Assembly (NCBI GenBank): GCA_903813345.2 | Contig: CAIIXF020000008.1 | Coordinates: 25,468,822 to 25,532,821 of the forward strand | DNA from: Owenia fusiformis | Taxonomy: Eukaryota > Annelida > Polychaeta > Sabellida > Oweniidae | Length of the DNA: 64,000 bases | Direction of reading: 5' to 3' | Shown here: positions 14,153 to 56,900 of the stretch, piece by piece | Layout: every line of letters starts with the position of its first letter | Position numbering within the stretch: position 1 is the first letter of the stretch | The notes under the pieces: generated by a model | The model's database searches: none | The model's input: only the letters and a program-made list of their open reading frames with translations | Told to the model about the DNA's origin: nothing | Made by a program: the position numbers and the translations under genes

Positions 14153-17100
14153 ATGTTTAGGCCCAGGATTATTTTATTCACCACTCTGGTTGTCAGGAAA
14201 ATTTCTTCGCCTGCCTCTTATGGATATTTATCATATTGGAACTGTTGCGTTAAATTAATGAACAAGATGCCACGTCGATCTAGAAACCACAGCAGTTCTA
14301 CGAATAAATCAGTGGAGGATTTATATGGGTCTAGGGACTCCAAGAAACGCATTAGAATTCACTCTGAAAACGGATATGCTGATGTTGGTCATCACAATCA
14401 TATAAAAAATGATAATACTGAGAGTGAGAGATCAGGAATAGGTGATCATTTTGTTATTGATAGAAAGGGAGATTCAAGTCTTCTCCAACATAATGTAGAC
14501 ATTAGGTCATCTGCTAGTGCTATTTCAAAGAATGGGCCACAAACTGAAACAAAAGATGCACAATTTACTCAGGAACTCTCTCAAAAAGCATCAAAAGATC
14601 GTAGAATCAAGTCAGGAATGTTTGATCCAAGATCTTGTAGAGTTGAAAGTCAGCGAAAAGCCAGATCACCAACCAAAGAGAGAAGTTCAAGTAGAACCTT
14701 CTCGACAGATTCAAAATCTGCTGGATCAAATGAAGTCACTTATAAACTGAAATCAGTGATGGTGAAAAAAAGTCCAAATACTAATAATGAGATGAGGAAA
14801 CAAACTTTCAGGGATGCTTTAAAAGATGAAGCCAGTGAACTTGAAAGTGCAGCTCATTCATATAGAAGTGCAGCTCATGGTTCTAATGTACAGTCATGCT
14901 CATCTGAAAGTGCAGCTCATTCATATAGAAGTGCAACTCATGGTTCTAATGTACAGTCACGCTCATCTGAAAGTGTAGCTCATTCATATAGAAGTGCAGC
15001 TCATGGTTCTAATGTACAGTCACGCTCATCTGAAAGTCCAGCTCAGTCATATGAAAAGTCAACTCGTAGTTTCAATGTACAGTCAAGGTCATCTGAATAC
15101 AGGGTTAGTCCAACTCATAGATATAACACACAAGCTTCTTCATCTGAATACAAAGCTACAAATCAATGTTCAAGCAGTACAAGGACATATCATACAGGTA
15201 CAACATATTCTCAAGTCATCCAATAATTCATTTATATTATGTATCAAGTAATTTCTTAATACAGTTATAAATAATATATAATTATAGATTAATATAATAT
15301 AATAAATGTTGTAATTAATTTGACAATTCATTCATAATTTCATCGCTGGAAAATGTCTGATAATAAATTAATAATTTTTTGATCAAAAGTTGAAGGCAAG
15401 TATTTTTTTACAGTTCATGTACAGTAATGCAGTAATGTCTTAAGCTATATTAAATGTTGTGTATTTAAGGTGTATCAGAACCAGATAAAAGCCTTCCACA
15501 CAGAAGAGACGCAGTGACACCTATTGGGAAACAACTCTACAGACAGGGTATTAAGTTCAACAACACCTCTGGTGGTCGCTCCAATCCAAACATGTTCACC
15601 TTCAAAGTGATGTCATACAATGTTCTTGCCCAGAACCTATTGGAAGATAACTCTGATTTATATCAGCATTGCAAGCCTGAGTACCTCGAATGGGAATTTA
15701 GGAAGGAAAATATTCTATCACAAATTACCAGCAAGTCTCCAGATGTAAGTTCAGTCATACTGGAAATAAACTAGAAATGTAAAAAATGATTACTTTGCTT
15801 CTATTTAATTTAGTGATACTTAGTTTGAAGGATTTGCTGTTTTGAACATTTGTCAAATACTAATTTGGTGGACTTGCAATATTGAAATGTATATACCATA
15901 CTTATGATTGAAATATTAAATTTGGATATTTTTGGACAGTTTGGGGGATCTGGCAAATTAAAACGGGCACCAAATTAAGTAGAAGTACAGTATCCAGAGA
16001 TTGAAATAGTTCAGGATCAATCTAAGGAAATACTTGAAACATGTAAAAGTAAAGATCACAAGTTTAAGTTCACAAGGTGGCTTAAAGATTTAGGCCAGAT
16101 CCTTTTGTAGTCACATCAGTAGTTCAATAAAAAATAAAAAGTTATTGAACTACTGATAGCACCACAGAAGGATCTGACCCGCATCTGTGTTGTGGCAGTG
16201 GCTCCCTCTTGGGAGTCATTGTTGTAAAGAATGGGCTTTATGGGACCATAGATTTGCTTTGATTTAAGGTTCAGGTACATAAAGTTTATCATGTTACAGG
16301 TGGTCTGTCTTCAAGAGGTGAATGAAAAGCATTGTGAGACATTCTTTAAGAAGAAACTGAAAGCTAAAGGTATGTTGATTAAATGAGTTTTAATAATATT
16401 TGACCGGGTTTGTTTAATCTGACACCCCCACCTAGGTGGATTTCTACCTACCTACCACACTAAATGGGTCTGCTTTTTTCAATTTCCTCTTTAAAATATC
16501 CTGAATTAACAATGGTTTATCAAATAGTGGGTTTCACGTTGGTCTCATACATTTTCACATGATAGATAAGCCAAGAACAAAGTCAACTAGATAACGGCAA
16601 CTCCGCGGAGTAGCAAATCCCAACGAACAAAATATCAATTACCGAATTCCAATCAATTATACTCATTACTTTGGTTAAAATTGAAAAAATTAGATTTTAG
16701 AATTGCGAATTCCTGCAAAGCAGCCATTTTGAATTTTCTGAGGTACAAATCTGAAAAATAATACCATAATTGTGATCTACTCCAAAAATCCTTCAATTTG
16801 AGTATAATATAGCCATACTTTGAAGGGATCGAAAAATTATTGCGAAATCGTACATTAGACGGCCATTTTGAATTTTACGAGGCTCGAATCAGAAAAAAGA
16901 TACAAGTATAATAAAGCTATACTTTAGAAAGATCTAAAAATTAGCGAAAATTTCTGTTTTCCTGACCCCCCATACACGGCCCCTGGGGGTCAGGATGAAA
17001 AACACGGAATATATGTGAAATAGATAAATGTTGTGAGTTGCTACCAAAATTTCAAACAATAATATTAATTACTTTGGTTTAGAATGAAAAATTTATGATT

Positions 17101-19511
17101 TTTGCGAAAAAGTCCCATCATTTTTAAAGCGGCGGCCATCTTGAAAAAATTTTTTTGTGTAAAACTATTCACCAATATACATCTTTCCACTAAATATGAA
17201 GAAAATCCGTCTACTAGTATTTGAGTTATCTTCCGGATGGACAGACGGATGGACGGATGGACGAACGGATGGACGGACTGACTGACTGACGGATGGAGGG
17301 AGGGCTTCACTATATCCCTACCGAACTTCGTTCGTTGGGATAATAAGTTCAAATTGTAATGTCATTTTTTGTAAGGGAAATCACTAGATTAGGTTCAACT
17401 GATCATATATGTTGATCAATAGTCTGCTAATAAGCGAGTTATGAAAACGGATCCCTAATAAAACCTGCAAAAATCACCCTGGTAACGTCCTGAAAAGCTG
17501 ATTTGGTGCCAATTTAAAAAATCATCATAGCAATAGTGGAGAACACGGAACTCTCGATTTTGTCTTGTAAATTATTATTCTGATTTGGCACCAATTTCAA
17601 ATGTCATCTTAAAATATAAGAGACTGTTGCGAAACGGGATGCTAATTATCCTGGCAACAGGAGGCAAATTATCCTGGCAACAACCTGTATAGCTGATTTG
17701 GCACCTGATTTTCAAAAAAAATCATTCCGTCCGTTAGGGTGATAACTAAATACCATTGGCCCATTTTTGTTCGTATTTTGTACACATATGTTTTATGGGA
17801 TAGAATTTCTACTCGAAAGCCAATTTTCAAAATGTCCACTTGCTTAAAAATTGTGGCCATTTACCAATTTTACAGAAATTTGAAATGTAGATGTTTAAGA
17901 AACACATGGCAGCCATCTTTAGAAGGAGTGGAGCGATTGTGTTCATATTTGAAAATGGCCATCATTTTTATTCTACGTTTTTTAGTATAACTCAAAAAGT
18001 AATACAGTTGGCATGTGAGCTACCATTTTGAAAATGGTGGCCATTTTTATGTGTGTTATTTTTACGATTTTTACTAAAATAACTGAAAAGGTAGTAGAAG
18101 AATTTTGTAAAAATGGCACCAACGGCTGTTTGATGGGATTTGCAATGCTTTGGCCTTGCTGTTATCTAGTTTCACAATTTCCTGGTTTGCAAACAGCAGT
18201 ACATTCAAGGTTGACTATTTACATAAATCACCTGATCATAAAGTTATGCAGTGGCGCCATTACATTCCACAATTTTCATTTTACTGTTAAGTAGCCTACA
18301 TTTTTATTTCGCTACATGATGAATTTGGGAATACATATAGTCACGAATTTACGCTAATATAATAATTGTGTATTATTCCAGGGTATGATGGCCATTTCAA
18401 AAAGAGGACAGGTGACAAGAAAGATGGGTGTGCCATATTTTACAATCCTTCAAGATTTGAACATGTTGAAAGCATCCCTGTAGATTACCTTCATGATGGT
18501 GCATATAATCTTGACAGGGACAACATAGCACTTATAACTCTATTGAGACCAATAAAACAATATTTGGGACCCCATAAACCCCCTATATATTACAATGAAG
18601 ACATCTTGGTTTGCGTGGCGAATACTCATCTGTTGTTTAACCCAAGACGTGGAGATGTGAAGCTCGCCCAAATGATGGTGCTGCTAGCTCAGTTGGATAA
18701 AATTGCTTACAGAGGTCGGAGAAATCACAATGAGGATATCTATCATCCAGTTATCATGTGTGGAGATTTTAATACAGAACCTTTCACCCCTCTGTATAAG
18801 TTTATACTGAAGGGGTCTATACAGTATGAAGGGATGAATGGTGGACTAGTTTGCCATAAGAATCGGGCTGGACAAACTATACCACAAACACTTATACCTG
18901 AAGAAGTTGGCATTTCGGATCAGTGTCTCTATAAAGAAGTCCATGCTAAAAGGGCAACTGATGTGATATATGAAACCATGAAGAAGGAACAAGCACTCAT
19001 GACTGCTGGATCACACACACATGTAGCACATCAGGGTGGTAGAAACAGTCCTTTTCAGAACCCCACTCATATACCCTCTTTAATGGTCCAGAACCCAGCT
19101 ATAATCACCTCATCAACATGCCAGCCACCTATACATGTAGAACCAACCCCTCAAACATTTGCCTCAGGGGTTCTTTCACATTGTTTCAACTTTGGTACAG
19201 TGTACCGTCATTTCAGGCAACTTAAGCCAGGCAGACGTGGGGAACCTGAAGTAACGACACACCACCAAAGGGCGTGTGAGACAGTTGATTATATTTTCTA
19301 CTCAGTGAAACAGAGTAATATGGACCCTAGACGTCCCAGTAGGTACGATGAAAGGATGTATGATGATGTCATAGAGGATAGACTTGAACTGTTGTCTTAC
19401 TTAGAAATGTACACTAAGGGTGCCTATGAATATGCAGGAGGCATACCAAATAGGTATGCTTCCTCCGATCATGTACCTCTACATTCAGTGTTTAGGTTGA
19501 AGATAGATTAG
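14153..19511 (+). CDS. ANGEL: ANGEL homologue, CCR4-family endonuclease/exonuclease/phosphatase
   Basis: Four coding exons: 14153-15197, 15470-15744, 16300-16369 and 18382-19511 (TAG). All junction phases agree and the product is up to 839 residues. The EEP fold begins near residue 392 with FKVMSYNVLAQNLLEDNSDL and continues with VVCLQEVNEKH (catalytic Glu about 446), RTGDKKDGCAIF, ANTHLLFNPRRGDVKLAQ, CGDFNTEPFTPLYKF, ETVDYIFYS and the C-terminal SSDHVPLHSVF, all as in vertebrate ANGEL1/2. These act on RNA; human ANGEL2 is reported to be a 2',3'-cyclic phosphatase. The roughly 350-residue N-terminus is low-complexity, Ser- and charge-rich, with tandem repeats. The start could be 14153, 14258 or 14267; a 3' splice site at 14117 suggests a 5' UTR intron. 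Intron 3 (16370-18381) holds two Helitron-like copies. It converges on vasohibin. Confidence 0.95.
14840..15110 (+). repeat. 66-bp coding tandem repeat in ANGEL exon 1
   Basis: About four in-frame units of 22 residues, consensus SESAAHSYRSAAHGSNVQSR (plus two residues), degrading toward the 3' side (SEYRVSPTHRYNTQASSSEY). The unit preserves frame, is rich in Ser, His and Ala, and lies in the disordered N-terminal region well before the nuclease domain. Confidence 0.9.
16098..16175. repeat. Small hairpin repeat in ANGEL intron 2
   Basis: GATCCTTTTGTAGTCACATC and AGTAGTTCAATAA are mirrored by TTATTGAACTACT and GCACCACAGAAGGATC across a short A-rich loop. Probably a tiny foldback element remnant. 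Confidence 0.6.
16587..17343 (-). mobile_element. Helitron-like non-autonomous element, copy 2
   Basis: On the minus strand it begins TTATCCCAACGAACGAAGTT (forward end 17343) and ends TTGCCGTTATCTAG (forward 16587). It has host A before and T after. The 3' hairpin ACTCCGCGGAGT is a perfect 12-bp palindrome, different in sequence from copy 1 but conserved in structure. A (CCGT)-type microsatellite lies at about 17230-17300. It is in ANGEL intron 3. Confidence 0.75.
17726..18169 (+). mobile_element. Helitron-like element, copy 3 (5'-truncated)
   Basis: Begins within the family near the microsatellite (ATTCCGTCCGTTAGGGTGAT) and ends TTGCTGTTATCTAG at 18169, followed by T. Shares the GTACACATATGTTTTATGGG and CCATTTTGAAAATGGTGGCC segments with copy 1. 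Lies in ANGEL intron 3, opposite in orientation to copy 2. Confidence 0.7.
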
Positions 19512-20947: not shown

Positions 20948-23900
20948 TTACATTCTTATTTGATAGACATGTGAATTTGTAGTCCTTTCTTCACCTGATC
21001 CCTGTATGGGAGTTTCCAAAATGTCATTATTTGATGTGTCTGTATTAACATTTCCTTGAGATTCATTATTAGATTTGGCTGAGTCTGTTTCATCCAAATT
21101 ATTTGTAATTGTATTGTTGGCACCTTTGTCTTTAGAACTTGGTTCATTATCATTAACTTGACTAGAATTCATCAGATGGTTTGACTCCTTGTTTTGTTGT
21201 AGTGTAACATCCTTGTTTTGCTGTAGTGTAACATCCTTGTTTTGTTGTAGTGTAACATCCTTGTTTTGTTGTAGTGTAACATCCTTATTTTGCTGTAGTG
21301 TAACATCCTTGTTTTGCTGTAGTGTAACATCCTTGTTTTGTTGTAGTGTAACATCCTTGTTCTGTTGTAGTGTAATATCCTTGTTTTGTTGAAGTGTAAA
21401 ATCCTTGTTTTGTTTGTTTGGTGAGGATTTCTCACTGGAAGTAGAGATATTGAGTTAGCACAAGGGGTAACACTTTAGAATATTATTACCTATTAAACAA
21501 GAAGTCATTCAATTTCTCTTCCAGGCAAAACCTGATCAAATGCTCAACTTCACAAATATACAAAAACTTCCAGACTTACTTTCTGTAAATACAGGATTAC
21601 TTCTGTAAGTCAATGTAAACTTGAATAAATAACTTTATGAAATCAGGTTTCTGATGTTTAATCATCTTACTTGGCAGACTTGGAATGTTTCTTCTTGTTA
21701 CTTGTATTCTTCTTTATGCCAGCTATAGATGGCTGGGTGCTGACTTTTGTAGGAGATATTGGCACCCCTCCTGCAGGTACCTTACTCTGAAAATATAAGT
21801 TGAATATTAATGGGACACCCCTGATAGAGCATTGAGAGACATTTTTAGCTCATATAGTGTGAGCTATTGAAATCACCCACTCGGTTGGTCGCCCTTATGT
21901 CCAGCCGTCCATTTTTATTGCCGAAAAATCACGTTTTCATCACTTAAACCACCAAAACATTTTAAATCATAAGTTGTGAACTTATTTAAAGGATATCCAT
22001 TTGATTTCTAAAGGATATGGTTTTTATGGCAAGAGGGCAATACTTTTATCAGGGTTGAGTAAATGAACTGAAATAATATTTGCAAGAGAATAGAATCATT
22101 TTCTACAAAAACTTTGAATGAGCTTATGCAGTCATTTAGTTTCAAAATATTTTTAACAAAAAATCCATATGTGTCATTGTCAATGTGCATATATAGTGTT
22201 TGGAGACAGTTAATTTAATTTTATGTATTTCTTTTCTTGTAGTGCATATAGTTTTCAAATTTTGCAACCTTATTTGCAATAATTAAATAGAAAAGATAAA
22301 TGTGAAAAAGGTTAAAAATCACATCATCCATTTCTATAAAGCAATCCTATATGTCTAATATCCATGGCATGCAGCAAAATTCCACATGCAAACCAAGCTT
22401 ATGTATGTGTACTACACTACAGTTGTAAACAACATGTACAGGGAATGAAGAAATTAAGTGGAAGTAAAAGTGGTGGATGGTTTAATCATGTCACCAAAAA
22501 GTGATGACATATTGTTATGGTCTCCGTTTTTTTTGTGATGGTGGTAGGCGATCAGCGGTTGGCATCTGTAACAAATGGTGGTGACATTTTGCATGTTAAT
22601 GCCTTGTTCACACCCAACCTGCCACTAATGCATGTACAGAATTTACATTAATTTAATGCGAATAGAAACGAAGCATTGTAATGCAAAATGTCACCTCCTG
22701 CCATGAGACTATAACAATATGTCACCACTTTTGGTGGTAACATAAAATGTAGTACAAAAAAACACCAAACAATACATACTGCCAATTCACAAAATCTACA
22801 CCTCTGGGATGACATTATGTAATATTAGAAATTCCTTCTGGAGTTGAGGTCCAATTACCATATGTACATCTGTACATGTATTAACATACATTATTTGAAA
22901 AATGGTACTTTCATTATCAGAAATTGTATTCCCGCTGAAAAATAACAGCCATAATGGAAATTCTTTCAAATTGACATTCACATATATTTGGACCAAATCC
23001 GATATCTGTTAAGTTATCTTTTTTCCATGGCCATCTTGAAAATGTCATCAAATTACAGGCACTCTGTCCATATACCAGCTTATAAAAGCAATTCCAATCC
23101 AGAACATTTTAATTTTGGGTAGCCTTGTCTTTTACTAGCTGTATGATGCTATTAACAGAGATGCTATAATGCTATTATATCTAAGTTGGAAGGTGCATAA
23201 GTGGGTCAGTAAGCTAGTTGGAGCACATTCAGACATCAAGGGGACAGATTTGTGCAAGATAAATGTTTTACCCTTGGAGATCTTGAAAAATATATGCTGG
23301 AAATAGTTTTCTGGCGTTCTACCTATTCGTGAGAAATATTTTGGATTAGTACATGAAGATTTTATTTTTTACCTCCTGTTAATATTTGGATAGTAATAAA
23401 TCATTAATGAAAACCAACACTACATCAACTTGTGAGTCTATAAACACGCACTTTACAATACATTACAATATGTACAATGAAAGTGTATTACTTTTTTTAG
23501 AAGATGAAGAAAAAAATTGGTGAAAATCCAAATTGAACAAAATGATAATGCCATTATTCTGATTACAAATACATGACCAATATATGTAATATCACAAAAC
23601 TTACCCTAACTCTCATTTCCCTTGCATGTCTGTCTAGTTCTTTACACATTTCTTCCCTTGACAGTTTTGGTACATTGAGGCTGAGATGCTGGAACAGGAA
23701 CATAAAATGCCATTAATTAAATCTGAAATTCTACAAATGTTTTAACACTGTATTGTTGTTACAGTCGGTATAGAACTTCTGATGCATCTTCAGTTGAAAT
23801 TTCGTTGTATGCTCTGCATTATAATATTTCTATTTGTGTTTGTAAGTGAAATATTGCCCTGTTATACAGTTTGGCATGTGTATACACTTACCCTCCATTC

Positions 23901-26900
23901 TATATGTTCATAACTATGTGGATCATGTGACACAGGAAGACCAATCTTCACTTTTTTAATCTCATGCCAGTCTGAAAATACAGGCAAATTGACTAAAACT
24001 CGAAGATGTGATACAATTATGAATAGAAAATTATTTTTGAAATAATTGTCTTCATGAATAATCTATTTTGGAATAAATAAACAATTACATTTTTTTTATA
24101 TTTTCACATATTGACACATTGACATAAAGAAAAAGAATAACCATAGTTTCGAACTTACATTTTGTGTATGAATCTTCATAGTCTACAATCAGCTCTGACA
24201 AACTCTAAAATGATAGAACGAATAACAATCAGCACAATTATTCTGAAATATAATAATAACATGAATATGTTAACTATAGAAGTACATATATGAACGGTAT
24301 TACAAGATTTATAAAAAGGTTTTACACAAACATAATTGTGCTGCAAAAAGGATGTACTTACAAATACACATTGTGCCATAATATGAAACTGATTTCTCAC
24401 CGATTTTACTGCAATATAAAGGGACCAAAAAGATTTTTGTTGAGTTGTGAAAGAGTGCTCAAAACATTTTACAGTTTCTATCCCATCTACAGCAAAACCT
24501 GTCTTAGTGAACACCTCTCTCTAGTGAACACCACTTCAAGACACATTTTACATTGACTCATGTATTTATAACTCCCTCTCTGTTATAAACACATACGAAC
24601 AGGGAACACTATTTTGTGGCTAATAGGTGTTCAATATATACAGGTTTAACTGTAATTCCTTTAAATGGTGATATACCTTATAGATAAGTGGTTTATTCAT
24701 TAGATCATCTCTCCTACTCATTCCAAGAGCACCATATCTACCACCATTGTAAACACCAAGTACAACGTGTCTATGAATATTGCCCATAAATGATGTCTTA
24801 AAACTTATTGGAAATCGTTCGGTCCCTGGAATTCCATTTGTGAGGTATCTGGGCAATGTGTCAAGGTTATATATATTTTGACATCATTTCAGGTGCACAT
24901 ATCACTTTAGATATGGGGAGAGTCTTTTTTCCCCCAGCAAACTTCCACCTAGGGTAAATATTATAGTACACTGAATGAACTTGGGACAGTCATAAAATGT
25001 TACTTATTTATCTATCTATTACATCTATTGACTTTAAAATTAATTTATCAATATAAATATTTTCTGATTAAGAGTTTTTTTTACTGATAAATATATTCTT
25101 TTTTAAGATTTGTTTTGAATTTTTCAATCATTGATGTAACTTTGTAACTTTCTAGCTCCAAATTGAGCTAGAAGCTTCAAATAAAAAGCATTTTAAAGTT
25201 CGTTTCATCCTCTATCTCAAGGTTGTATTTTTATTGGTTATAGGGGGTGCATCCCCCTGGCTACGCCTGGATGGTAAAGGATACATTCCTAGTATGACAG
25301 CTTCGAGGCATTTTATGGGCAGAGATTCCTTTATCATGTCTCTGGCTGATTCCATTAGTCTGAAACACAAAGTATGGAATGTGTAATAAAAAACAGCATT
25401 CCTTTTCATTTCAAGAGCAATTAATTAGTAATTAGTAATTTGGAAAACAATATTTTATAATTTTTGTAATGTTTTGCTGTTTATATTCTTAATGGAAAAA
25501 ATAAACATTATTAATTGAACTTACTAAAATGTGTGTACCCTTTTTACTGTAAAAGGCCAATGTACATGAATTTTAGCAACTCCATTTGTCTTAATATATT
25601 AAAGTCATTCATCACTCGAGTGATCGTCATACAAACAGGTTAGTCAATGCTATTTGCAAAATATAATTTGCTTCTTACCCTGATATTGGCCGGTTCTTCC
25701 TGATTTCAAAGAATTGGGTTCCTGTGTGATTGTATCTAATAGTTGGTTAAAGAGTCAATTGTTGGACTTACAGAGAGATTTAAAGAGTCAATTCTTGGAA
25801 ATACATAATAATCATGTAGTGATGTTTCTCTGTTTCAAAAGAATCCTAGATGTGTGTATTACAATGTGATAGAACTTCTGCGTACAAATTCTATGCAATG
25901 CTTCTAATTAATGTAACATTTGGTTAATGGATAATTGATCGGTTAAAAAAGTTATTTTAAAATATCTGATCTAAAACATTGTCAGTGTATTGCTACTTTT
26001 CCATATTGAATCTTATAGAGCTTCTGTTTTGAAAAGTATTTTAGCTTTGGTAAACGAGAACATATCTGCCCCTGATATATCATTTGATTGATAATGTACA
26101 TGTACTTGAAATAATAAAAATTCAATACAAAAGGTAAGAAATGTAAGGTTAATATTATTTTTATGGCAATGGATACTGTAGCTGGCTCATGTATTTCTGG
26201 ATGACCTCCATCTTCTCACAGACAGGGATGCTTGCAGGTAAGTTCATTGGAGCAGAAGCACTGGCTACCTGAAATATATAGACATTGATTTAAGTTCATT
26301 GAAGTGGGGGCACTGGCTACCTGAAATATATAGACATTGGAGTAAGCTCATTGAAGTAGGGCCATTGGCTATCTGAAATATATAGACATTGATTTAAGTT
26401 CATTGGAGCAGGGGCACTGGCTACCTGAAATATATAGACATTGGAGTAAGCTCATTGAAGTAGGGCCATTGGCTATCTGAAATATATAGACATTGGAGTA
26501 AGCTCATTGAAGTAGGGCCATTGGCTATCTGAAATATATAGACATTGATTTAAGTTCATTGGAGCAGGGGCACTGGCTACCTGAAATATATAGACATTGG
26601 AGTAAGCTCATTGAAGTAGGGCCATTGGCTATCTGAAATATATAGACATTGGAGTAAGCTCATTGAAGTAGGGCCATTGGCTATCTGAAATATATAGACA
26701 TTGGAGTAAGCTCATTGAAGTAGGGCCATTGGCTATCTGAAATATATAGACATTGGAGTAAGCTCATTGAAGTGGGGGCACTGGCTATCTGAAATATATA
26801 GACATTGGGGTAAGTTCATTGAAGTGGGGGCACTGGCTAGATCTGAAATATACAGACATTGGGGTAAGTTCATTGAAGTGGGGGCACTGGCTAGATCTGA

Positions 26901-29317
26901 AATATATAGACATTGGGGTAAGTTCATTGAAGTGGGGGCACTGGCTAGATCTGAAATATACAGACATTGGGGTAAGTTCATTGAAATGGGGGCACTGGCT
27001 AGATCTGAAATATATAGACATTGGGGTAAGTTCATTGAAGTAGGGGCATTGGCTACCTGAAATATATAGACATTGGGGTAAGTTCATTGAAGTGGGGGCA
27101 CTGGCTAGATCTGAAATATATAGACATTGGGGTAAGTTCATTGAAGTAGGGGCATTGGCTACCTGAAATATATAGACATTGGGGTAAGTTCATTGAAGTA
27201 GGGCCATTGGCTATCTGAAATATATAGACATTGGAGTAAGCTCATTGAAGTGGGGGCACTGGCTAGATCTGAAATATATAGACATTGGGGTAAGTTCATT
27301 GAAGTGGGGGCACTGGCTAGATCTGAAATATACAGACATTGGGGTAAGCTCATTGAAGTGGGGGCACTGGCTAGATCTGAAATATATAGACATTGGGGTA
27401 AGCTCATTGAAGTAGGGCCATTGGCTATCTGAAATATATAGACATTTGGGTAAGTTCATTGAAGTGGGGGCACTGGCTAGATCTGAAATATATAGACATT
27501 GGGGTAAGCTCATTGAAGTAGGGCCATTGGCTATCTGAAATATATAGACATTTGGGTAAGTTCATTGAAGTAGGGGCATTGGCTATCTGAAATATATAGA
27601 CATTGGGGTAAGTTCATTGAAGTGGGGGCACTGGCTATCTGAAATATATAGACATTGGGGTAAGTTCATTGAAGTGGGGGCACTGGCTAGATCTGAAATA
27701 TATAGACATTGGGGTAAGCTCATTGAAGTAGGGCCATTGGCTATCTGAAATATATAGACATTTGGGTAAGTTCATTGAAGTAGGGGCATTGGCTACCTGA
27801 AATATATAGATATTGGGGTAAGTCCATTGAAGTAGGGGCATTGGCTAGCTGTAATATATAGACATTGGGGTAAGTTCATTGAAGTAGGGGCATTGGCTAC
27901 CTGAAATATATAGACATTGAGGGGAGTTCATTGGAGTAGGGGGACTGGCTACATGAAATATATAGACATTCATTTAAGTTCATTGGAGTAGATGCACTGG
28001 CTACCTCATTGAAACAGGGCACTGGGTATATTGTAGATGTAAAAGTCTATTGGGGTAGGTACACTGGCTACCTGAAATATAGACATTGGTGTAAGTTCAT
28101 TGAAATAGGGGCATTGGCTACATTGTAGATGTTAAAGTAAGTCCATTGTGGTAGGTACACTGGCTACCTGAAATTCATGAATATTGAGAATCAATGGATC
28201 TACAGAATAAAATATCTTTATTGATCTCCATGGGCTATTTATCTTTGTTTGATTTATTGGTCATTATGCTCCTTTGATTAGAACACTATTAATTAATATC
28301 AACTTCTAGTCTACTGTATATTGCAATCTAGTAAGGAAGACTATTATTGCCTTTTATGTTAGACATTTACTATTCCCAAGACATCATGATTCTAATCAAT
28401 ATAATCAGTGATCTACCCCGCATTAAAGCAAGTGGGCTGAGATTTTGAAAACAGGCTTGCACCCACCTGAAGATCCATTTGAACTCACTGAGAAAATGAG
28501 AAAAATTGGCATATTTGACCAATTTTGGTTTAAATTTTGAAAAGTACAGTTTTTGCATCCACCTGAGAAAATTCCAAGGGAGACAAGGGAGATAACTAAT
28601 AATGATGATGAATAAATCCAGTCAACTACAAATAATATTTGGACACAGAAGTCATAGATTTGTTCAGACAATATGTCAATTATACAACGTATAGTGGACT
28701 GAAATTGAAATTTACAATATGTAAAAATATCAAAATTGTCCAGCAGGTGTAACATGCAGTAGACTGATGAACTTCGTTCTCCAAAACGAGACTCTTTTGG
28801 AATGAAAAACCAACATACAGTAAAACCTGTCAATGTGAACACTTCTCTCTTGTGAACACCTTTCTCTAGTGGACAAAGTAACATTGCCCGCAGCCAGTTT
28901 ACCATGGTCTTTTCTTGAAAGTCCATGGTTTTACACACGGGGGGGGGGCTTTTGGCAGGGGGTAGCTTTTAAGACAGTTTTATCTAAAAAATACAGAATG
29001 GTGAACACTGAATGATTTTGAAAGAATTTCCATCCAGGGTGGTAAGGAGCTTCCGCTCCCCCAGCTCCCCCCCCCCTCTCCCCCTACGGCTCTGGTAACT
29101 GAAATAGGAACTTTACCTCTGGTAAAACAAGCTTGGATTTGATATCGTACACCATATCCATTCCACCAGGATGTATTTTAGATACATGATTCCACATTCG
29201 TTCCCATGTCTTTTCATCAATTGGGAATCCTGATTTGTTCACCCAAAACAGAACTCCATTTTCTTCGCCGACCTCGTCCTCATCTTCACATTTCAACGAT
29301 TGTTGCAAGCTCTGCAT
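20948..29317 (-). CDS. VASH: Vasohibin, tubulinyl-Tyr carboxypeptidase
   Basis: Ten minus-strand exons with fully matching phases: 29317-29117, 26268-26177, 25735-25679, 25359-25285, 24848-24677, 24204-24159, 23971-23892, 23688-23605, 21786-21671 and 21434-20948 (469 residues). Vasohibins, with SVBP, remove the C-terminal Tyr of alpha-tubulin. Conserved blocks: GFPIDEKTWERMWNHVSKIH, SQLQYNHTGTQFFEIRKNRP, ESLPIKCLEAVILGIYLTNG, ERFPISFKTSF, GGRYGALGMSRRDDLMNKPL and GLPVSHDPHSYEHIEW. The transglutaminase-like triad is Cys134, His169 and Ser186, with the same 35 and 17 spacing as human VASH1 C169/H204/S221. The C-terminus ends YQIRM, close to YQIRV of VASH1. The start (29317) is the first ATG after an in-frame stop. 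It is longer than vertebrate vasohibins because of octapeptide repeats in the last exon. Intron 1 carries a minisatellite derived from its own exon-2 acceptor. Confidence 0.96.
21186..21420 (-). repeat. 24-bp coding minisatellite (NKDVTLQQ repeats) in vasohibin last exon
   Basis: Nine full 24-bp units and a partial one, forward consensus TCCTTGTTTTGTTGTAGTGT (plus four bases). On the coding strand each gives the octapeptide NKDVTLQQ, with variants NKDFTLQQ and NKDITLQQ at the N-terminal edge and NKESNHL at the other. The unit is a multiple of three, so copy-number change keeps frame. It lies in the basic-to-polar tail after the catalytic domain. Confidence 0.95.
21845..21945. repeat. Dispersed repeat fragment (TTTTAGCTCATATAGTGTGAG type)
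   Basis: The sequence TTTTAGCTCATATAGTGTGA followed by GCTATTG, a CACCC block and GTCCAGCCGTCC resembles a family of interspersed repeats I recall from marine invertebrate, especially molluscan, genomes. Only one edge is recognisable. It sits in vasohibin intron 8. Confidence 0.4.
22490..22742. mobile_element. Foldback MITE, 253 bp
   Basis: The left arm GTCACCAAAAAGTGATGACA then TATTGTTATGGTCTCC is mirrored by the right arm GAGACTATAACAATATGTCA then CCACTTTTGGTGGTAAC. Partial relatives occur at 38547-38642 (GTGGTGACATATTGTTATGG) and about 53490-53550. No coding capacity. Lies in vasohibin intron 8. Confidence 0.7.
24490..24652. mobile_element. Tc1/mariner or pogo-type MITE, 163 bp
   Basis: Left end CAGCAAAACCTGTCTTAGTG then AACACC and right end GGTGTTCAATATATACAGGT then TTAACTG are mirrored, with TA on both sides (24488-24489 and 24653-24654). 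A related single end (CAGTAAAACCTGTCAATGTG) occurs at 28819. Sits in vasohibin intron 5. Confidence 0.7.
26269..28170 (-). repeat. 52/54-bp minisatellite built from vasohibin exon-2 splice acceptor
   Basis: About 35 tandem units immediately upstream of exon 2 in vasohibin intron 1. On the coding strand a unit reads CAATGTCTATATATTTCAG, then GTAGCCAGTGCC (or ATAGCCA, or ATCTAGCCAGTG), then CCCACTTCAATGAACTTACC. The authentic exon-2 boundary is the same sequence: TCTATATATTTCAG then GTAGCCAGTGCTTCTG and CAATGAACTTACC. The array is therefore a serial duplication of that boundary. Units are 52 or 54 bp; runs of 54-bp units keep open frames on both strands (for example MNLPQCLYISDLASAPTS), which are artefacts of the repeat. 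Units near 27900-28170 are most diverged. Confidence 0.95.
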
Positions 29318-45629: not shown

Positions 45630-46059
45630 TATTAATATTATCTATAAATTATCGAAATATAAAGAAATGTTGTAGAAATATACCGTGAATTTCCTTCCTT
45701 CAAACCTGTTATTAGTTGTCAGGTAGCAACGCGCCTGCGCACTGGTCTTGATGAGGAAATGACAAATTCAATTCTATTAACGAAATTATAAATAAATGCG
45801 CAAAATCATTCAAATCAATATATTAATCAATTTATTACTTTGAAATTCATTAAGTTTTATTAATTTTATCAAATAATATATTTCATTTATCAGAATTACA
45901 TGTTTCATAGAGTCTATCTTTTATTTTCGGCTTTCGATTAGTTTGTCTTATAGTGTTGCTGCTGTCTGCATCATTTCCGGGTTTTAAACCTTGAAATATG
46001 TGAAATATTCTAAGTATTCCTAGAATATAAGCCTTCGAAAATAATACCTTCGTTTGATT
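45630..46059. promoter_or_regulatory. Bidirectional promoter region, RSPH9/NUDT22
   Basis: 430 bp between divergent start codons. GTTGTC at 45715-45720 and AGCAAC at 45725-45730 form an imperfect X-box (RFX site) with a 4-bp spacer, about 90 bp upstream of the RSPH9 ATG. It is followed at once by GCGCCTGCGCA (45731-45741), like an NRF1 site. These are motif resemblances, not proof of binding. Confidence 0.45.
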
Positions 46060-48578
46060 ATGTCTTTGGAAAATACCATAATGTTTTCTACATCACCTGG
46101 GGTAGTAATCGACAGGAAAAACACAAGGATAAATATGTCCACCACATTCAACCGAAAATGCTTGCCAAGTTCAGATGAAAAAAATATTGAAACAATCTGG
46201 GATAACAGAAAAAAGAAAAATAGCACATTATTTAATGGAACAAAATTTAGACTAGATACTGTGTGTCAGTTATTCAATAAAGAAACTTTGACATTTACTC
46301 TGAATTTGGGGTTGACAGATTACAAAGACTTTATTGGGACGAATTGGTCGCCAAATGCAAAGCAGATTCTTCAACATGGAGAAAATGAATATGGAAATAC
46401 ACAAGCTTGTATGTCAGATGCAATGGGCGTTGGTTCTCTTGTCCTGACTGCAGATAATCGTGCCATATTTTTGAAACGCAGCCAGTTTTGTGGAGAAGCT
46501 AATGGTCTTTATGACATTCCAGGTGGCCATGCAGAACCAAGTGTAAGTATGATGTAGCATAGGCGGGGTTGCCCCACCCCTAATGACTTTGACTGTCGGA
46601 GTTTTAGGGGAGGCATCAAAAGATCAATGTCTGATAGAAAACTAAATAAATCTAGTTTGGGGGGGAGGGGGTCAAAGCAATTTCAGTTTGCTATCCGACA
46701 AATTTCAACATTCCAATTTTTTGCAATTTCGACTCAAAATGCCTTAGAATAGTTTAAAAATAAAGACTTTACCAGATGCCTTCTTCACCAAAATGCATGC
46801 AACATGGAATATATTGTTGTTGACACATGTTTTAAGAATTATAAATAAAGTATAGTAGCCTACTGCCCCCATGAAAGTCCAAATTGAGTCGCTGAAATAT
46901 GTGAAAAGTCCGTGATCAACTTTCATTGTATTTAGTTTTGAGGGGGAGGGGGGGGGGTCCAACTCAAAACTAGATTTATTTAGTTTCCTATCAGACATTG
47001 AACTTTTGATGCCTCCTCTTAATAGGGTCATTAGGCCAGTAACAAATCTCATATGAATAAAGGCCCAGAGGTGCATTAATGCGCCTAGTTGTATAGTGTA
47101 GCCAGGATAAGGCAGATGAGGCAGCCTCATATATTTCTCTATCAGTGAAATTCTAATTACCGATGACAGATCCATAAATAAAGTGCATTAATTCATCTAT
47201 AATTCATCATAAACTAAGATTTAATAACTTCTTTAAAATTGAACCCTTCAAAGGCTGTATCATGTCCCAAACACGTGAGTAGGTGGGTGCGAGGTAAGTT
47301 TTTTATACATTAAGCCAATTTTTTCATATAAATACCAGTTTTTTCAGAATTGACATTTTTTGGCCTGATTTGTTTGTACATAAATAGTTACTAAAGAAAT
47401 AGTAATTTATCTTTCAGGAGTTGGTAGGGAAATTACCAATGCAAGAAATAGATCTCTCAGCGCTGAACGAGGAAGCTGTAATTGATGAAATATACAACTC
47501 AACACTCAGGGAAATCAGAGATGAAGTCAATGTTCCCCTGGATTCCCTCACAGAACCAATCTTAATGGGAATAGCTAGAAATATCACAAGTTCATATAGA
47601 CCTAGTGTTGAATTTTTTGTAAGGTAAAACAATTTTAACTTAAGCCAGCACTGATAGCTAGATTGAAATATATTGCAATTACCAATAACAAACTATATAA
47701 TAGACTAGATGCGAGTACAAGTAATATTGATTTACATCATTAAACAGTTAAATATGGCTTTGAAAATAAAATTGTTTATCAAGTTTGAAAATTTAATGGT
47801 TTTTTTTTGAAAGTGTGACTTCTAGTCCGGGGAGATTCCCCATAGACCCCATGTTATAAAATCACAAAATGTGAAATATCTTTTTTGTATTGGACAGATA
47901 ACATTTTCTTTCACTGGTCATATTTTAATTTGCATAACTTAAGGGTGATATGAAAATTGAACCACTAGAACAGATGAATATTAATTAAGTAAAAGGGAAC
48001 TTTCTACTATACCCGCCATGCCATCTGACTTGAACGAGCCTACTCACATCTGAGTTCGCATCTGATGTTACATATATGTATGCAAAAAATTAGTTGACAT
48101 TGCTTGATCCCAACTAAAAAAGTTAAGATAATGTGTTGCCGGTAGTTGGATCTCTTTCAGTATTTGGCTGAAAGGAAAAAAATCATAAAACTACAATTAC
48201 ATGTATTTGGCCTTTGACCTCTCTGCTGATCTTTTAATTTGAACACTTTTTGAACTATTGACATCAATGAAACAAGCCTTAATGAATATTTTTCACTTTT
48301 TTCATTCTCAATAAAATTAGTATGCATGAATAAGAATCATTGAATTATAAAAATCGTGAGTTAATTGTTTATGTACTTTCAGATGCAGTTTATCAGGTGA
48401 ACAAGTTGAAAAATTATATCATAAAGGTGGAGCAGAGGAGTATGAATCCACAACAATTGTATTCATTGCACTGGACAGAATAAAAAGTTTACAAAATGAT
48501 GACTTTTGGAATACTATGGCCCCTTCTGCCAAGGGATGTGTGAAACTTTTTCAGTTGAGTGAAATATCAGCTGAATGA
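46060..48578 (+). CDS. NUDT22: NUDT22, Nudix-type UDP-sugar hydrolase
   Basis: Three exons with matching phases: 46060-46542, 47418-47623 and 48383-48578 (TGA); 294 residues, against 303 in human. Human NUDT22 hydrolyses UDP-glucose and UDP-galactose to UMP and sugar 1-phosphate. Conserved segments: FRLDTVCQLFNKET region, LGLTDYKDFIGTNWSPNAKQ, GNTQACMSDAMGVGSLVLTA, LYDIPGGHAEPS, TLREIRDEVNVPLDSLTEPI then LMGIARN, SVEFFVRCSLSGEQV and YESTTIVFIA. The Nudix box is atypical, as in NUDT22 generally: the GGH part (end of exon 1) is separated from REIRDEV (exon 2) by an insertion. The ATG at 46060 is chosen as the first in frame. Intron 1 holds an inverted-repeat element. A piggyBac-like MITE begins 11 bp after the stop; AATAAA at 49317-49322 is a candidate polyadenylation signal. 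Confidence 0.93.
46608..47018. mobile_element. Inverted-repeat element in NUDT22 intron 1
   Basis: Left arm AGGCATCAAAAGATCAATGT then CTGATAGAAAACTAAATAAA and TCTAGTTTGGGGGG is mirrored by the right arm ending AACTTTTGATGCCTCC. Arms are about 60 bp, total about 410 bp, with G-rich inner edges. No coding content or clear target duplication. Confidence 0.7.
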
Positions 48579-50991: not shown

Positions 50992-53900
50992 ATGCCGCTG
51001 CTTCGACGACAACCATTTACGAAAGAAAAGCCACCAGCTGATCTCAAGCCGGATGAAGAAGTTTTCTATTGTCCACTAACTGAGGAAATATTTAGAGATT
51101 ATGAGTAAGTTGATATGTAACTGCTAAAACATCAGTTAGGCTATTCTGTGAAATAAACACAATTTGATTGTGCAATTCACACTGTGATACAAATCACTCA
51201 TTGTTCATCAACTTGATCAACTGAAAATTGTGGACAAGTATTCAGGTTTATGTCTACACATTCTTTTAGGGAATTCTTCGAGAGAATCATTCTGTGCAAT
51301 AGTTTGGTTTGGACCTGCTCAATCACTGGCCGGCCAGGGTTGACTTACCAAGAGGCGTTGGAGTCGGAAGAAAAGGCTAGAAAACATCTGTCAACCTTTC
51401 CAAAATATCTGCAGAAGCCTGTACTATACCTTGCTACACTAACTCATAGGAGTCGTCTAAATGATATGAATGATGATGTGTTTGTTTTTATGAAAGATCG
51501 TTTTTTCGTTGGGGAAACAGTTGAAGTCCTCAACGATGGAGAAAAGTAAGTTTTTTTCTTAGCATGGTCGTAGCCAAGATATAAATAGGCAAGGCAAATT
51601 TAGACTAAAGGATTTATGATGGAACTGCAAAATAATATTTTTTTGTAAAATTTTGACAAGGCTTGCTAGAAGATGTATGGAAATAACATTTTCTACACAA
51701 GACTAGAGTATAATTTGAAATGTTTGTAACTACTTTGAATTTAAAAAATAAGCAATCAAAGGACCATATTGAAACAGTATATGTAAAAATAGAAACATTT
51801 ATACATGTATACATGTCCTAACTTTTGTATATTTTAGTTTGTTTTGTAGTTTAGCTATCATACCTGTGGCCTCTTATATTTTGATGCTTCTCTGCCATGT
51901 TATTTTCGGAAATATTAACATGGCTGATTACAAAAGGCCACAGCATTGCTGCACATTATAAATAACTATCTGAAATATACAAAAGTTAGGACAAGTACAT
52001 ATGTTTCTAATTTTTATATACTGTTGCAATATAGTCATTTGATTGCTTATTTTTTAAATTCAAAGTAGTTACAAACATTTCAAATTATACTCTAGTCTTG
52101 TGTAGAAAATGTTATTTCCATACATCTTCTAGCATTTAAAATTATACTATATCTTTGGAGTGAAAGTCAATTTAAAACACATCATAATAGAAACTGATAA
52201 ATTAAAATTTGCCACAGTTAGGAAATAGTTAGTGTAAAACCAAACTTGTTGTAACTAAATAAATTATTTGTCATCTACATGTATTTGTTTTTATGGAGTT
52301 ATTTAAAGGTATTGCCTTCAAATCATCTTAAATACAGACATGGGCTTTCAACTATCAAATTTCATGACCAGCATATTTTCAATGCAAAAAGTTTTCTTAA
52401 TGGCCCATGAATCTTATCAAATAAAAACAATATGGTGGCTCATAATGAGTCTACTGGAATTCTAAGAAATTAGGAGAGTTTGGTAAATTCCTGTTTTTGA
52501 AATAGTCTTGCTAGTGATAAACAATTTGTGGAAAAGTTCACTATCTTTGAATATTGAGAGGGTGAATTATCTAAAGGATGCACGATCCAATATAAATCCT
52601 TGTGTTCGTCCATACTGTTTTGTGTTTTGTTTCATTTACCGGACATTTCATAAGAGACCATACTTTATGAGCAACATCAATGACAAGCGTTCAATTTGCT
52701 AAACACCATGCTAGCTTTTTAAAAATAATTTTGGTAATATAATTTATCCGTCTTCTCTGAAACAAATTTTATTTCAAAATGGGCCTAATTGTGTGATAAT
52801 TGTTAACCAAATTCATTTTTGTTTCCAGGAAAAACTGTAAGATTCTTGAGGTTGTTCAACCAGACAAAAATGCTGGTAAAGATTCTGATGATGAAGGCTC
52901 TTGCATTGTTCTAGATGACAGCACAGACAGTGAAGATGAACCTCTAAGGTATATGTCTTTAGCATTTTTAGCAAAGTCATTAACTTATAACAGCATCTTA
53001 TCACATAACAAAAGTGTCAAAAATTAAAGTTAAACATTTTATTGCTACAGAAAAAGTTTTGAGTGAAATACATGTTTGTGCCTGATGATGATTCTATCCT
53101 TGCTCGCATAGTACAGAGAACCTACCATAGGTGTCACTGTGTGCAGATAAAATGGCCCCCTGGTGGTGGTCCTGTGGATAACTACTGGGGCTGAAGGCAA
53201 TATAGCAATAATATTAAGGTGATACACAGTAGTACATGCGTTCATATTGTATTTCAATGCCCCTTTTGTTTATTTGTAGTAAAATTGCAAACGCTTCATT
53301 CATCAGCCCAGGAAAGTATCAGTATGTTGTCCAGGTAGATGGCACTAACAACATCCTGGTTGTAGATGCAGAAGATGTCAAGTAAGTATATTGTAATATA
53401 TTTTGCCTTCCACCACATCTGGTGGGCAATAGCAATTCTCTTTAGTTAGTTTCATATTTTGTGTAATGTAGACTCTTGATCTATTTTTTATGTCACCATC
53501 ATTTAACCATCAACTAACATATGTAACAAAATGGCAGGTGGTGACATTTTTGCATAATGTGTGTTTCTTGTCATCATTTGCATACAAGCTAGATTTGTTT
53601 GTAGAACATCTGTAGTTTATTTGAGGTACAAAAGTTGGGTGTTGGAAATTAAACTAGAGTTACATGTATTATTGGGAACAATTATTATTTTTAGTCGGAA
53701 AAAGGGACTCTACACACGAGATAAAAGCAAACTGTTTTTGAAGCAACATGGTGAAGTAACTCCAGAGGGAATCTGGAAGATTAAGGTAGGGTGGTTTACT
53801 TTGAGTGAAATGTTCTTGTTTCAGGGTAATATACACCTTTTAATGATTTATATTTCATTTGAACATCATATTCTTTTAATGTTGTTAAACTATTGTGTGT

Positions 53901-56900
53901 CCCACAAAAAAAGAAAAAGATATCCACATATTTGTGCCTGATGACGATTCTATCCTTGCTCGCATAGTACAGAGGACCCACCATAGGTGTCACTGTGTGC
54001 AGATAAAATGGCCCCCTGGTGGTGGTCCTGTGGATAACTACTGAGGCTGAAGGCATCCATCTTCTAATTCTTTATTTTAAAATCCAATATGATTCAATTT
54101 GATACCAGACCTTAAAAAATTGTTATTTTTTCTGTTATTTTCAGGATCGGTTTATAAAAAAATTCAAAGTCCCTGAGTGCAACTTCTCAGACTATTTCCC
54201 AGTCACCCCTACATTCCAAACTACTGTTGCAAAGAAGAAGCCAGCATCCAAATCAAGTACTTCCAAAGATGATGACATCATCAAGAAACATAAGAAGGAG
54301 AAAAAAGAAAAGAAATCCAAAGAAAACAAGGAAAAGGAGAGTAAGAAAAAGGAGAAAAAAGGAACAAAACAAGGTAATGTGACATTGAAACTTCATGTAT
54401 GGCACTATAAATGTCAAAAACTGTCTTGAATCTCCATTCAAAGTGTTCATTGTCTAAAATGTTTTTATAACCAGGGCTAAAACTAGTATTATTGTCAGAT
54501 TAGTTTTCATATCTGATATTTCCGTTTGCCATCTAGAAAGTTTTAACCCTAAAAGCTTGGGCACTGAATGCAACTGACATTTTAAAGCCAAAAAGAAGTT
54601 GTCTAAAGAAGCTCAGGAAAAGTTGAGGGATAAAGATTGGGAACCTAACGAGCCACACTTATCCACAAATAAGAGGTCAAGGTCAATAGAAAGTGTCGAC
54701 AAGGAAGATCTAGAAGATTCTATGAAGTCTGTGGATAATTCTGTTGTATCATTTGAGGATTCCTTGAACAATTCAGAGAGTTTGGAGTTTGCTCTCTTGT
54801 CTCCTACAGAAAGCCCAGATAGTAGGACCATAGATAAATCCTCATTTGCTTTGTTGTGTTACTGTTTATCATATGTTGTAACAGTATTTAAAGAGAGAAT
54901 CAGATCTAGCGAGCAGGCTCAACAAAAAATTGTTTCAATTTTAGAATATTTTTGGCTCATGTCATTCCTTGTCATGTCTATTTTCTAAAAATCACAAAAG
55001 TACATGCTTTATTCCAGGAAAACTAAAACATTTTACAATAATGTATTGTTTTTCTATAAGAATGGTTACCATTCTTATTATTTGGGAGAATTTAAACATT
55101 TTTCACCCATTTTTGCACTTTGAATCATTAATAACTTCACCAATTTATAACATATTGTGAATCTTTTGGGAGATATTGTATTTGATATTGTAATGAATAG
55201 ATTGGAAGGTCAATTGTACATGTTGCATGTAATTTTGTCACCCCCTATAGATCAGATTCTGCCTTTAAGTTTATTTTTGTTCATGTTCATTTTTCACGAT
55301 TTTAAGATGTATAACCTTTTTGCAAAGAAAATGAAAGCTGTAACTTTATTCTATTCAATACTTCATACTTTCATTAATATAGGGAGTAGGAACATGACTA
55401 CACATATTACTTGATATAAATGACCTGACACAATCTCCCCTCAGAGAATGAGAAACATAGTACTCTTGAAAGAATACTCATATATCAGTCTATATATTCT
55501 ATTATTTTTGCATTATGATGTGAATTTTGTGAACCATGGGAAATTTGGATATTTTGATTCTGGAACTTTTATTAAAATCAGTAAATGTATTGTATGTTAT
55601 TTCTACTGCAGTTAATAAGCCCATACCTGAGCCTGTAAAGAAGTTAACTCCAGAGGAGCGTGAGGCCCTAAAGGAGAAGTTCCGCCTGGAAAAAGAGAAA
55701 CAGAGACAGGAGGCTCTTGCAGTGAAGGCAGCTATGAAAGAGGAGCTCAAGAAGAAGTGGGAGGAGGAGAAATTGAAGAGGAAGGAGGAGAGAGATAAGG
55801 CAAGTGCTACAGTCATATCTCTAGCACTGTATAATGCAGGCTGTCCATAAAGTCTCTACACTTTACATAGACTTTGTATTGTAATTGTAAAAGACTTTAT
55901 GTACACCCCTTATATTAGCAGGGTGAATCTATATAATTATACTATGTCTCAAAATAGCCGTTGGAAAATATTGTTACTTGTAAAAACAAACATCAAATCA
56001 CTAAATGTAATTACAATGAAAAACAATAGATTTAGGATTTTGAATGAAATAGACCTGTAATTAGCCTAGTCCTATTTCCTTGTCAATCAAAATACTTGAC
56101 ATAAGATGCCATTATCTGAAATTAATTGAGAGACTTTAAATGTATTTAAAAAAGTATCTTGAGATTAGAGATGTAAAATCAACGTTATCTTGCTATAAAT
56201 TGCAATGATTACATTGTTATAGGAACGAGAGAAGAAGCGTGAAGAGATGAAGGTGAAAGCCCAACACATGAGAGAATGGAACAGACCGAGGGAAGATCTG
56301 CAATGTGAAGATCTCAAGGTAAAGATAATGCTCACATTGGAGATGTTCACTTTATAGGAGAGCTTTTTACATACAAGGTTTTACTATAGCTGATGACATT
56401 TTGGAAAATATTTTCCTCAAGAAATAGGACTTAATGCTATTAATTTTGTATAATAACATCATATTATTATCATATGTGCCTGATGATGATTCTATCCTTG
56501 CTCGCATAGTACAGAGGACCCACCATAGGTGTCACTGTGTGCAGATAAAATGGCCCCCTAGCGGTAGTCCCGTGGATAACTGCTTGGGCTGAAGGCAACA
56601 TTGTGAGATAACTGTACATTAAATTATCATTATCCATAATTTTGAACACCAACATTTATACAGCCTCGTATAGAAGGTTATCGGAGCACCTATTAAAACA
56701 AAAAAAAGAATTTAAAGTGAGCAAATGTCCAACAGTGAATTGTAGAGCGAGTATGTTTAAATTTGAGATTGGTTCCAGGATATGCCAGTTTCCATTCCTG
56801 TACAAACACGTATTCCCAATGAGCTGTTTGGAGAGGCTATGATGATATTAGAGTTCATCCATGTTTTCGGCAATCTGTTTGATGCTAAGACCAACCTCCC

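Follow-up and report, generated by a model that had tools for sequence, protein, structure and literature searches.

How does splicing settle on one 3′ splice site when 34 near-identical ones follow each other within a single intron, and when the start of the exon has been duplicated along with them? This question is raised by a 64,000-nt stretch of the annelid Owenia fusiformis (contig CAIIXF020000008.1 of assembly GCA_903813345.2, forward-strand positions 25,468,822–25,532,821; hereafter the window, with positions counted from its first nucleotide), in which intron 1 of a predicted vasohibin gene on the minus strand carries a long tandem array of its own boundary with exon 2. We consider it highly probable that this array is a large boundary minisatellite of the kind termed mirages in amphioxus, mostly neutral, and that splicing is held in place by the one copy to which the remainder of exon 2 is attached. 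The locus offers a natural test of splice-site choice, and the design of the array lets local acceptor strength and exon context be told apart.

Anatomy of the array in vasohibin intron 1

The exon–intron model of the gene was built from splice signals and protein similarity alone. It comprises 10 exons and 469 codons (20948–29317, minus strand), and the gene it predicts is a vasohibin, complete and with its domain at full length. Residues 1–319 of the protein joined from the exons match the Pfam family Vasohibin (PF14822; E-value 6.2e-114) over positions 1–245 of the 245-position profile, and a protein search of PDB matched 19 distinct sequences (best E-value 3.7e-106). The matched chains are named Tubulinyl-Tyr carboxypeptidase 1 and 2, also called VASH1 and VASH2. 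The coding part of exon 1 (29117–29317) ends at the boundary GAG|GTAAAG and is followed by intron 1 (26269–29116, 2848 bp), with its acceptor AG at 26269–26270, and by exon 2 (26177–26268, 92 nt), all on the minus strand.

The array lies at about 26237–28167 and takes up some 1.9 kb of intron 1, which measures 2.85 kb. On the gene strand, each unit opens with the 19 nt that end the intron, CAATGTCTATATATTTCAG, and goes on with 33 nt matching the start of exon 2, where the repeated part is the first 33 nt (26236–26268). Tandem Repeats Finder (TRF) described the main array (26237–28003) as a 52-bp unit in 33.6 copies with 91% matches, and a distal stretch (28020–28167) as a 46-bp period in 3.2 copies. 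Splitting the minus strand at TTTCAG, TTTCAT or TTACAG gave 35 blocks, which end with the authentic exon start. Among units 3–34, 22 are 52 bp long and 10 are 54 bp long, in an order that does not strictly alternate, contrary to what had been supposed; the longer units carry two additional bases directly after the acceptor (ATCTAGCC in place of ATAGCC), which brings their exon-derived part to 35 nt. The decayed distal end (28004–28168) lies in the two outermost blocks (96 and 119 bp), in which three more degenerate exon-start copies were counted by eye, some of the copies there lacking an acceptor. The total comes to about 38 exon-start copies, the authentic one included and the distal ones counted by eye. 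The original prediction had recognized a minisatellite in intron 1 derived from the acceptor region of exon 2, which is what we found, although the span of 26177–28170 given for it joins exon 2 to the array itself.

Of 34 TTTCAG/TTACAG sites, the final one, at 26269, is the authentic acceptor and the other 33 (26321–28169, minus strand) are decoys; in one further unit, at 27953, the acceptor is replaced by TTTCAT. In the terminal unit, the 19 intronic nucleotides are identical to the array majority, and over the 52-nt unit it shares 42–48 identical positions with each of units 3–34. No other copy is followed by the last 59 nt of exon 2 and the donor of that exon. A 25-nt junction pattern, searched with up to three mismatches and missing the 54-bp units, matched the window 23 times but never matched any of 100 shuffles, and the unit consensus, used as a blastn query, had no further copy in the window beyond the array. 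When 18 vasohibin exon boundaries were tested by blastn, boundary copies were found for the exon 2 acceptor only; the exon 10 acceptor gave three short matches, all of them inside the coding repeat of exon 10. An exact 24-nt pattern had no matches in collections of viral contigs and genome contigs, as expected for an animal sequence. The GC content is 31–40% in 2-kb steps, which is low for amphioxus. The last coding exon of vasohibin has a 24-bp tandem repeat of its own (21186–21414; 9.5 copies by TRF), encoding about nine copies of the 8-residue unit NKDVTLQQ.

The geometry had been thought to lack a described case, but it is already known from amphioxus, and the vasohibin array appears to be a large further example. 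In the amphioxus globin gene BflGb6, minisatellite-like tandem duplications of the 3′ end of an intron and the 5′ part of exon 2 were termed mirages, and similar structures were reported at other loci, with length instability and, at Adh3, somatic instability (PMC3087553). BflGb6, BflGb9, Adh3, TnC and PGBD5 have in common a tandem duplication across an intron–exon boundary, AG/GT signals in many but not all repeats, and a retained authentic boundary (PMC3087553, PMC3902484). The same features are found here: the unit spans the boundary, the authentic boundary stands at one end of the array, and many, though not all, units keep AG/GT signals (33 decoy AGs, nine CAG|GTAGCC, one TTTCAT and some distal copies without an acceptor). 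The 52-bp unit also falls within the 10–72 bp of the Adh3 mirage. In contrast, BflGb6 carries only 3 and 6 copies in its two haplotypes, with units of 150–160 bp, against about 38 copies in vasohibin (PMC3087553). The amphioxus mirages also lie in other genes.

More distant likenesses exist in other organisms. The human CBS 31-bp variable number tandem repeat c.1444_1467+7(16_21), to judge from how it is numbered, covers the end of an exon and the beginning of an intron in 16–21 copies (PMC2630376), although it carries the donor side of the exon, whereas the vasohibin array carries the acceptor side. In the CBS variant 844ins68, the intron 7/exon 8 junction is duplicated and the more distal site is strongly favoured; the relevant passage calls this site a ‘donor’, while a title in the reference list of the same paper speaks of a 3′ splice site (PMC2630376). 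That variant, however, has only two copies. In the potato RdRp gene, a tandem duplication across intron 1 and exon 2 included the branch site, the tract and the 3′ splice site (PMC4974935), but it created a new intron, whereas the vasohibin copies remain inside the old one. Among annelids, earthworm metallothionein genes contain intronic minisatellite-like repeats and exon duplications that are missing from the final transcript, and no boundary array was seen in the portion of that report available (PMC12783039). A search of the open-licence literature, including one on mollusc vasohibin, found no report of a boundary array in vasohibin.

Reading frame and splice signals of the decoy acceptors

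The consequences of decoy use were followed by joining exon 1 to each intron 1 AG at or below position 28200 and keeping everything down to exon 2, so that the analysis covers extensions of exon 2 only. Only one of the 105 AG sites keeps the reading frame, namely the authentic acceptor. None of the 33 decoys does so, and in every case the extension runs into a premature stop, which excludes alternative N-termini produced by exon 2 extension. The 54-bp units had been proposed to add 18 residues in frame, yet whichever of the ten is entered, the second codon is TAG, at residue 69. Across the 34 acceptors, CAG|GTAGCC occurs at 10 (the authentic site and nine decoys), and the sequence after the acceptor is ATAGCC at 13, ATCTAGCC at 10 and CTAGCC at one, so that in 24 of the 33 decoys the AG is not followed by GT. 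The expectation of many intact decoy acceptors was borne out by all 33, but not in the specific form CAG|GTAGCC, which is confined to 9 of them.

The local signals of the decoys were scored by general splice consensus rules. A YTNAY branch-point match lies within the AG-free stretch of 30 of the 33 decoys. The authentic site has none, because the preceding unit reads TTAAAT, and introns 4 and 6 of vasohibin also lack such a match at their own acceptors. One simple acceptor rule picks out 32 candidate sites in the 1.96 kb of the array region, compared with 18 in the 4.11 kb of introns 2–9 (4.4 per kb), 4 in the 941 nt of intron 1 that lie outside that region, and 2.8 per kb on the minus strand of the window without the array. 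Given that this rule fails for three of the nine authentic vasohibin acceptors (introns 1, 4 and 6), it measures resemblance and not use. As donors, the best sense-strand sites in the array agree with the consensus at 6 of 9 positions (nine CAG|GTAGCC and three AATGTCTGT), and CAG|GTAGCC misses the consensus at +4, +5 and +6. The nine real vasohibin donors range from 4 to 8 of 9. The opposite strand of the array (26237–28167) holds many good donor-like sites, comprising 13 GGGGTAAGT, three TGGGTAAGT, one AAAGTAAGT and one CAGGTAAGT.

Two introns of the gene have donors of the U12 type. Intron 2 (25736–26176, minus strand) begins with GTATCCAT (7 of 8 matches) and contains the branch-like CTCTTTAAC (7 of 9), and intron 4 (24849–25284, minus strand) begins with GTATCCTT (8 of 8) and contains AACCTTGAC (7 of 9), both branch-like sequences sitting close to the end of the intron. 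On the gene strand, only 11 of 3190 GTs match the U12-type donor at 7 or better, and two such donors in nine introns are therefore unlikely by chance. The branch matches do not discriminate, since introns 3 and 7 score 7 of 9 as well; the donors do. From these predicted signals, exon 2 would have the major spliceosome acting on its upstream side and the minor one on its downstream side. In a mouse study, Vash1 is named with an exon adjoining a U12-type intron (PMC2787017).

Origin of the array and competing explanations

A likely course of events is that a short stretch of the intron 1/exon 2 boundary, with about 19 nt of intron and 33 nt of exon, was tandemly duplicated, that splicing stayed with the copy adjoining the remainder of exon 2 while the upstream copies became intron, and that these were then amplified and homogenized through ordinary minisatellite turnover. 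Splicing would mostly pass over the decoys, since no copy but the terminal one leads on to the remainder of exon 2 and the donor behind it, with exon definition presumably selecting the terminal acceptor. Transcripts that did use a decoy by exon 2 extension should be lost to nonsense-mediated decay, since the extension gives a premature stop. The array is probably harmless to the vasohibin gene. In amphioxus, the Adh3 data and globin reverse-transcription PCR suggest that regular splicing is undisturbed by mirages (PMC3087553), and the PGBD5 paper states that the Adh and TnC mirages give no aberrant mRNAs (PMC3902484); these published cases point to little effect on splicing efficiency in vasohibin as well.

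The variation among the units is counted in favour of this account. Neighbouring units are more alike than in shuffled orders, with 147 differences against a mean of 178 (61 of 5000 shuffles were as low), and units 3–35 comprise 18 distinct types. In a mirage, the interior would be expected to be homogenized and the boundary of the cluster left out of this process. Measured in aligned columns that deviate from the array consensus, unit 3 differs in 8 and units 29, 32 and 35 in 6 each, the remaining units among 3–35 in 1–5, and the distal blocks are degenerate. The authentic exon, unit 35, had been described as the last and most diverged unit; the last it is, but it deviates no more than units 29 and 32 and less than unit 3, and it is additionally under coding constraint. 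As to polarity, alignments show that the first codons of exon 2 encode a linker whose length is within one residue of that in both PDB vasohibins, and because this length is conserved, a boundary duplicated into the intron appears favoured, though not proven, over an array captured by the exon.

Several observations weigh against this account. The donors of the array are weak, but this is a poor argument taken by itself because real donors also score low, with only 6 of 9 matches at intron 1 and only 4 of 9 at exon 2, the latter being U12-like. The acceptor half of the unit, which makes up 19 of the 52 columns, received 6 of 33 inferred changes, fewer than expected (binomial p = 0.03), and an invariant-column test of the same half gave a Fisher p of 0.09. 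With units so few and short, this is at most a hint at constraint, which neutrality does not predict. Moreover, the argument for polarity leans mainly on length, since the 11 repeated residues are poorly conserved, with 3 of 11 identical to one PDB vasohibin and 2 of 11 to the other.

A rival possibility is that the array acts as a copy-number rheostat, in which some transcripts splice to decoys, acquire premature stops and are degraded, so that vasohibin output is lowered or tuned. The slightly under-mutated acceptor half would fit such a role, as would the stops reached from all 33 decoys, the branch-point matches present in 30 of them and absent at the authentic site, and the excess of acceptor-rule sites (32 in the 1.96-kb array region, 18 in the 4.11 kb of introns 2–9). 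However, regular splicing in the published amphioxus mirages (PMC3087553, PMC3902484) speaks against it, and the acceptor rule, which finds 4.4 sites per kb in introns 2–9 and fails at three of nine authentic acceptors, is a poor guide to use; we regard this role as unlikely. In a stronger form, which we think quite improbable, the boundary minisatellite of some 38 copies, perhaps one outside lancelets, would be a length-dependent brake, its decoys with better branch-point matches diverting some transcripts to decay while the real site would prevail solely by being paired with the U12-type donor that ends exon 2. If true, the output of a tubulin-modifying enzyme would be coupled to both minor-spliceosome activity and array length. 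The likelihoods we attach to these explanations and to those below concern readings that are not all mutually exclusive.

A stepwise, recursive removal of intron 1, in which CAG|GTAGCC sites serve as acceptor first and donor next, could draw on nine decoys and the authentic site, which match the donor consensus at 6 of 9 positions, as does the real donor of exon 1. Yet the sites lack the good donor right after the acceptor that a ratchet would call for, given the mismatches at +4, +5 and +6, a GT is missing after the AG in 24 of the 33 decoys, and the intron is only 2848 bp long, so that we give recursive splicing hardly any credence. It is also highly unlikely that the array came first and lent exon 2 its acceptor and first codons: the low residue identity of the 11 repeated codons to the PDB vasohibins would agree with that order, but a gain from the array should add residues, whereas the linker length is within one residue. 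Considering that one amphioxus mirage was aberrantly assembled in a draft genome (PMC3087553) and that the vasohibin array comes from one assembled sequence, an assembly artefact in its copy number or order has to be weighed too; with 18 unit types in a non-random order and the flanking gene intact, we find it very doubtful. The neutral boundary minisatellite, with splicing held by the terminal copy, remains the explanation we prefer.

Neighbouring genes and other repeats

A second minisatellite in the window touches a likely 3′ splice site: a 32-bp array at 63456–63618 stops a few bases short of a likely exon acceptor, whose AG it does not include. Tail to tail with vasohibin, an angel homolog 2-like coding sequence lies on the plus strand at 18366–19511 (PDB match, E-value 4.2e-51). 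The ANGEL and VASH genes are neighbours in human too, and the adjacency may represent an ancient linkage. The open frame at 14153–15226, which has no Pfam match and contains a 63-bp tandem repeat at 14842–15097, may belong to the same angel-like gene.

Further along the plus strand, open frames at 51217–51549, 59403–59813 and 62922–63269 (region 51217–63269) gave matches to WAC, WSD and PHD domains, a combination known from BAZ1A/ACF1. A NUDT22-like coding sequence is found at 46045–46557 (PDB match, E-value 3e-32; no Pfam match at 0.001), and a fragment of a fibrinogen C-terminal domain lies at 337–660.
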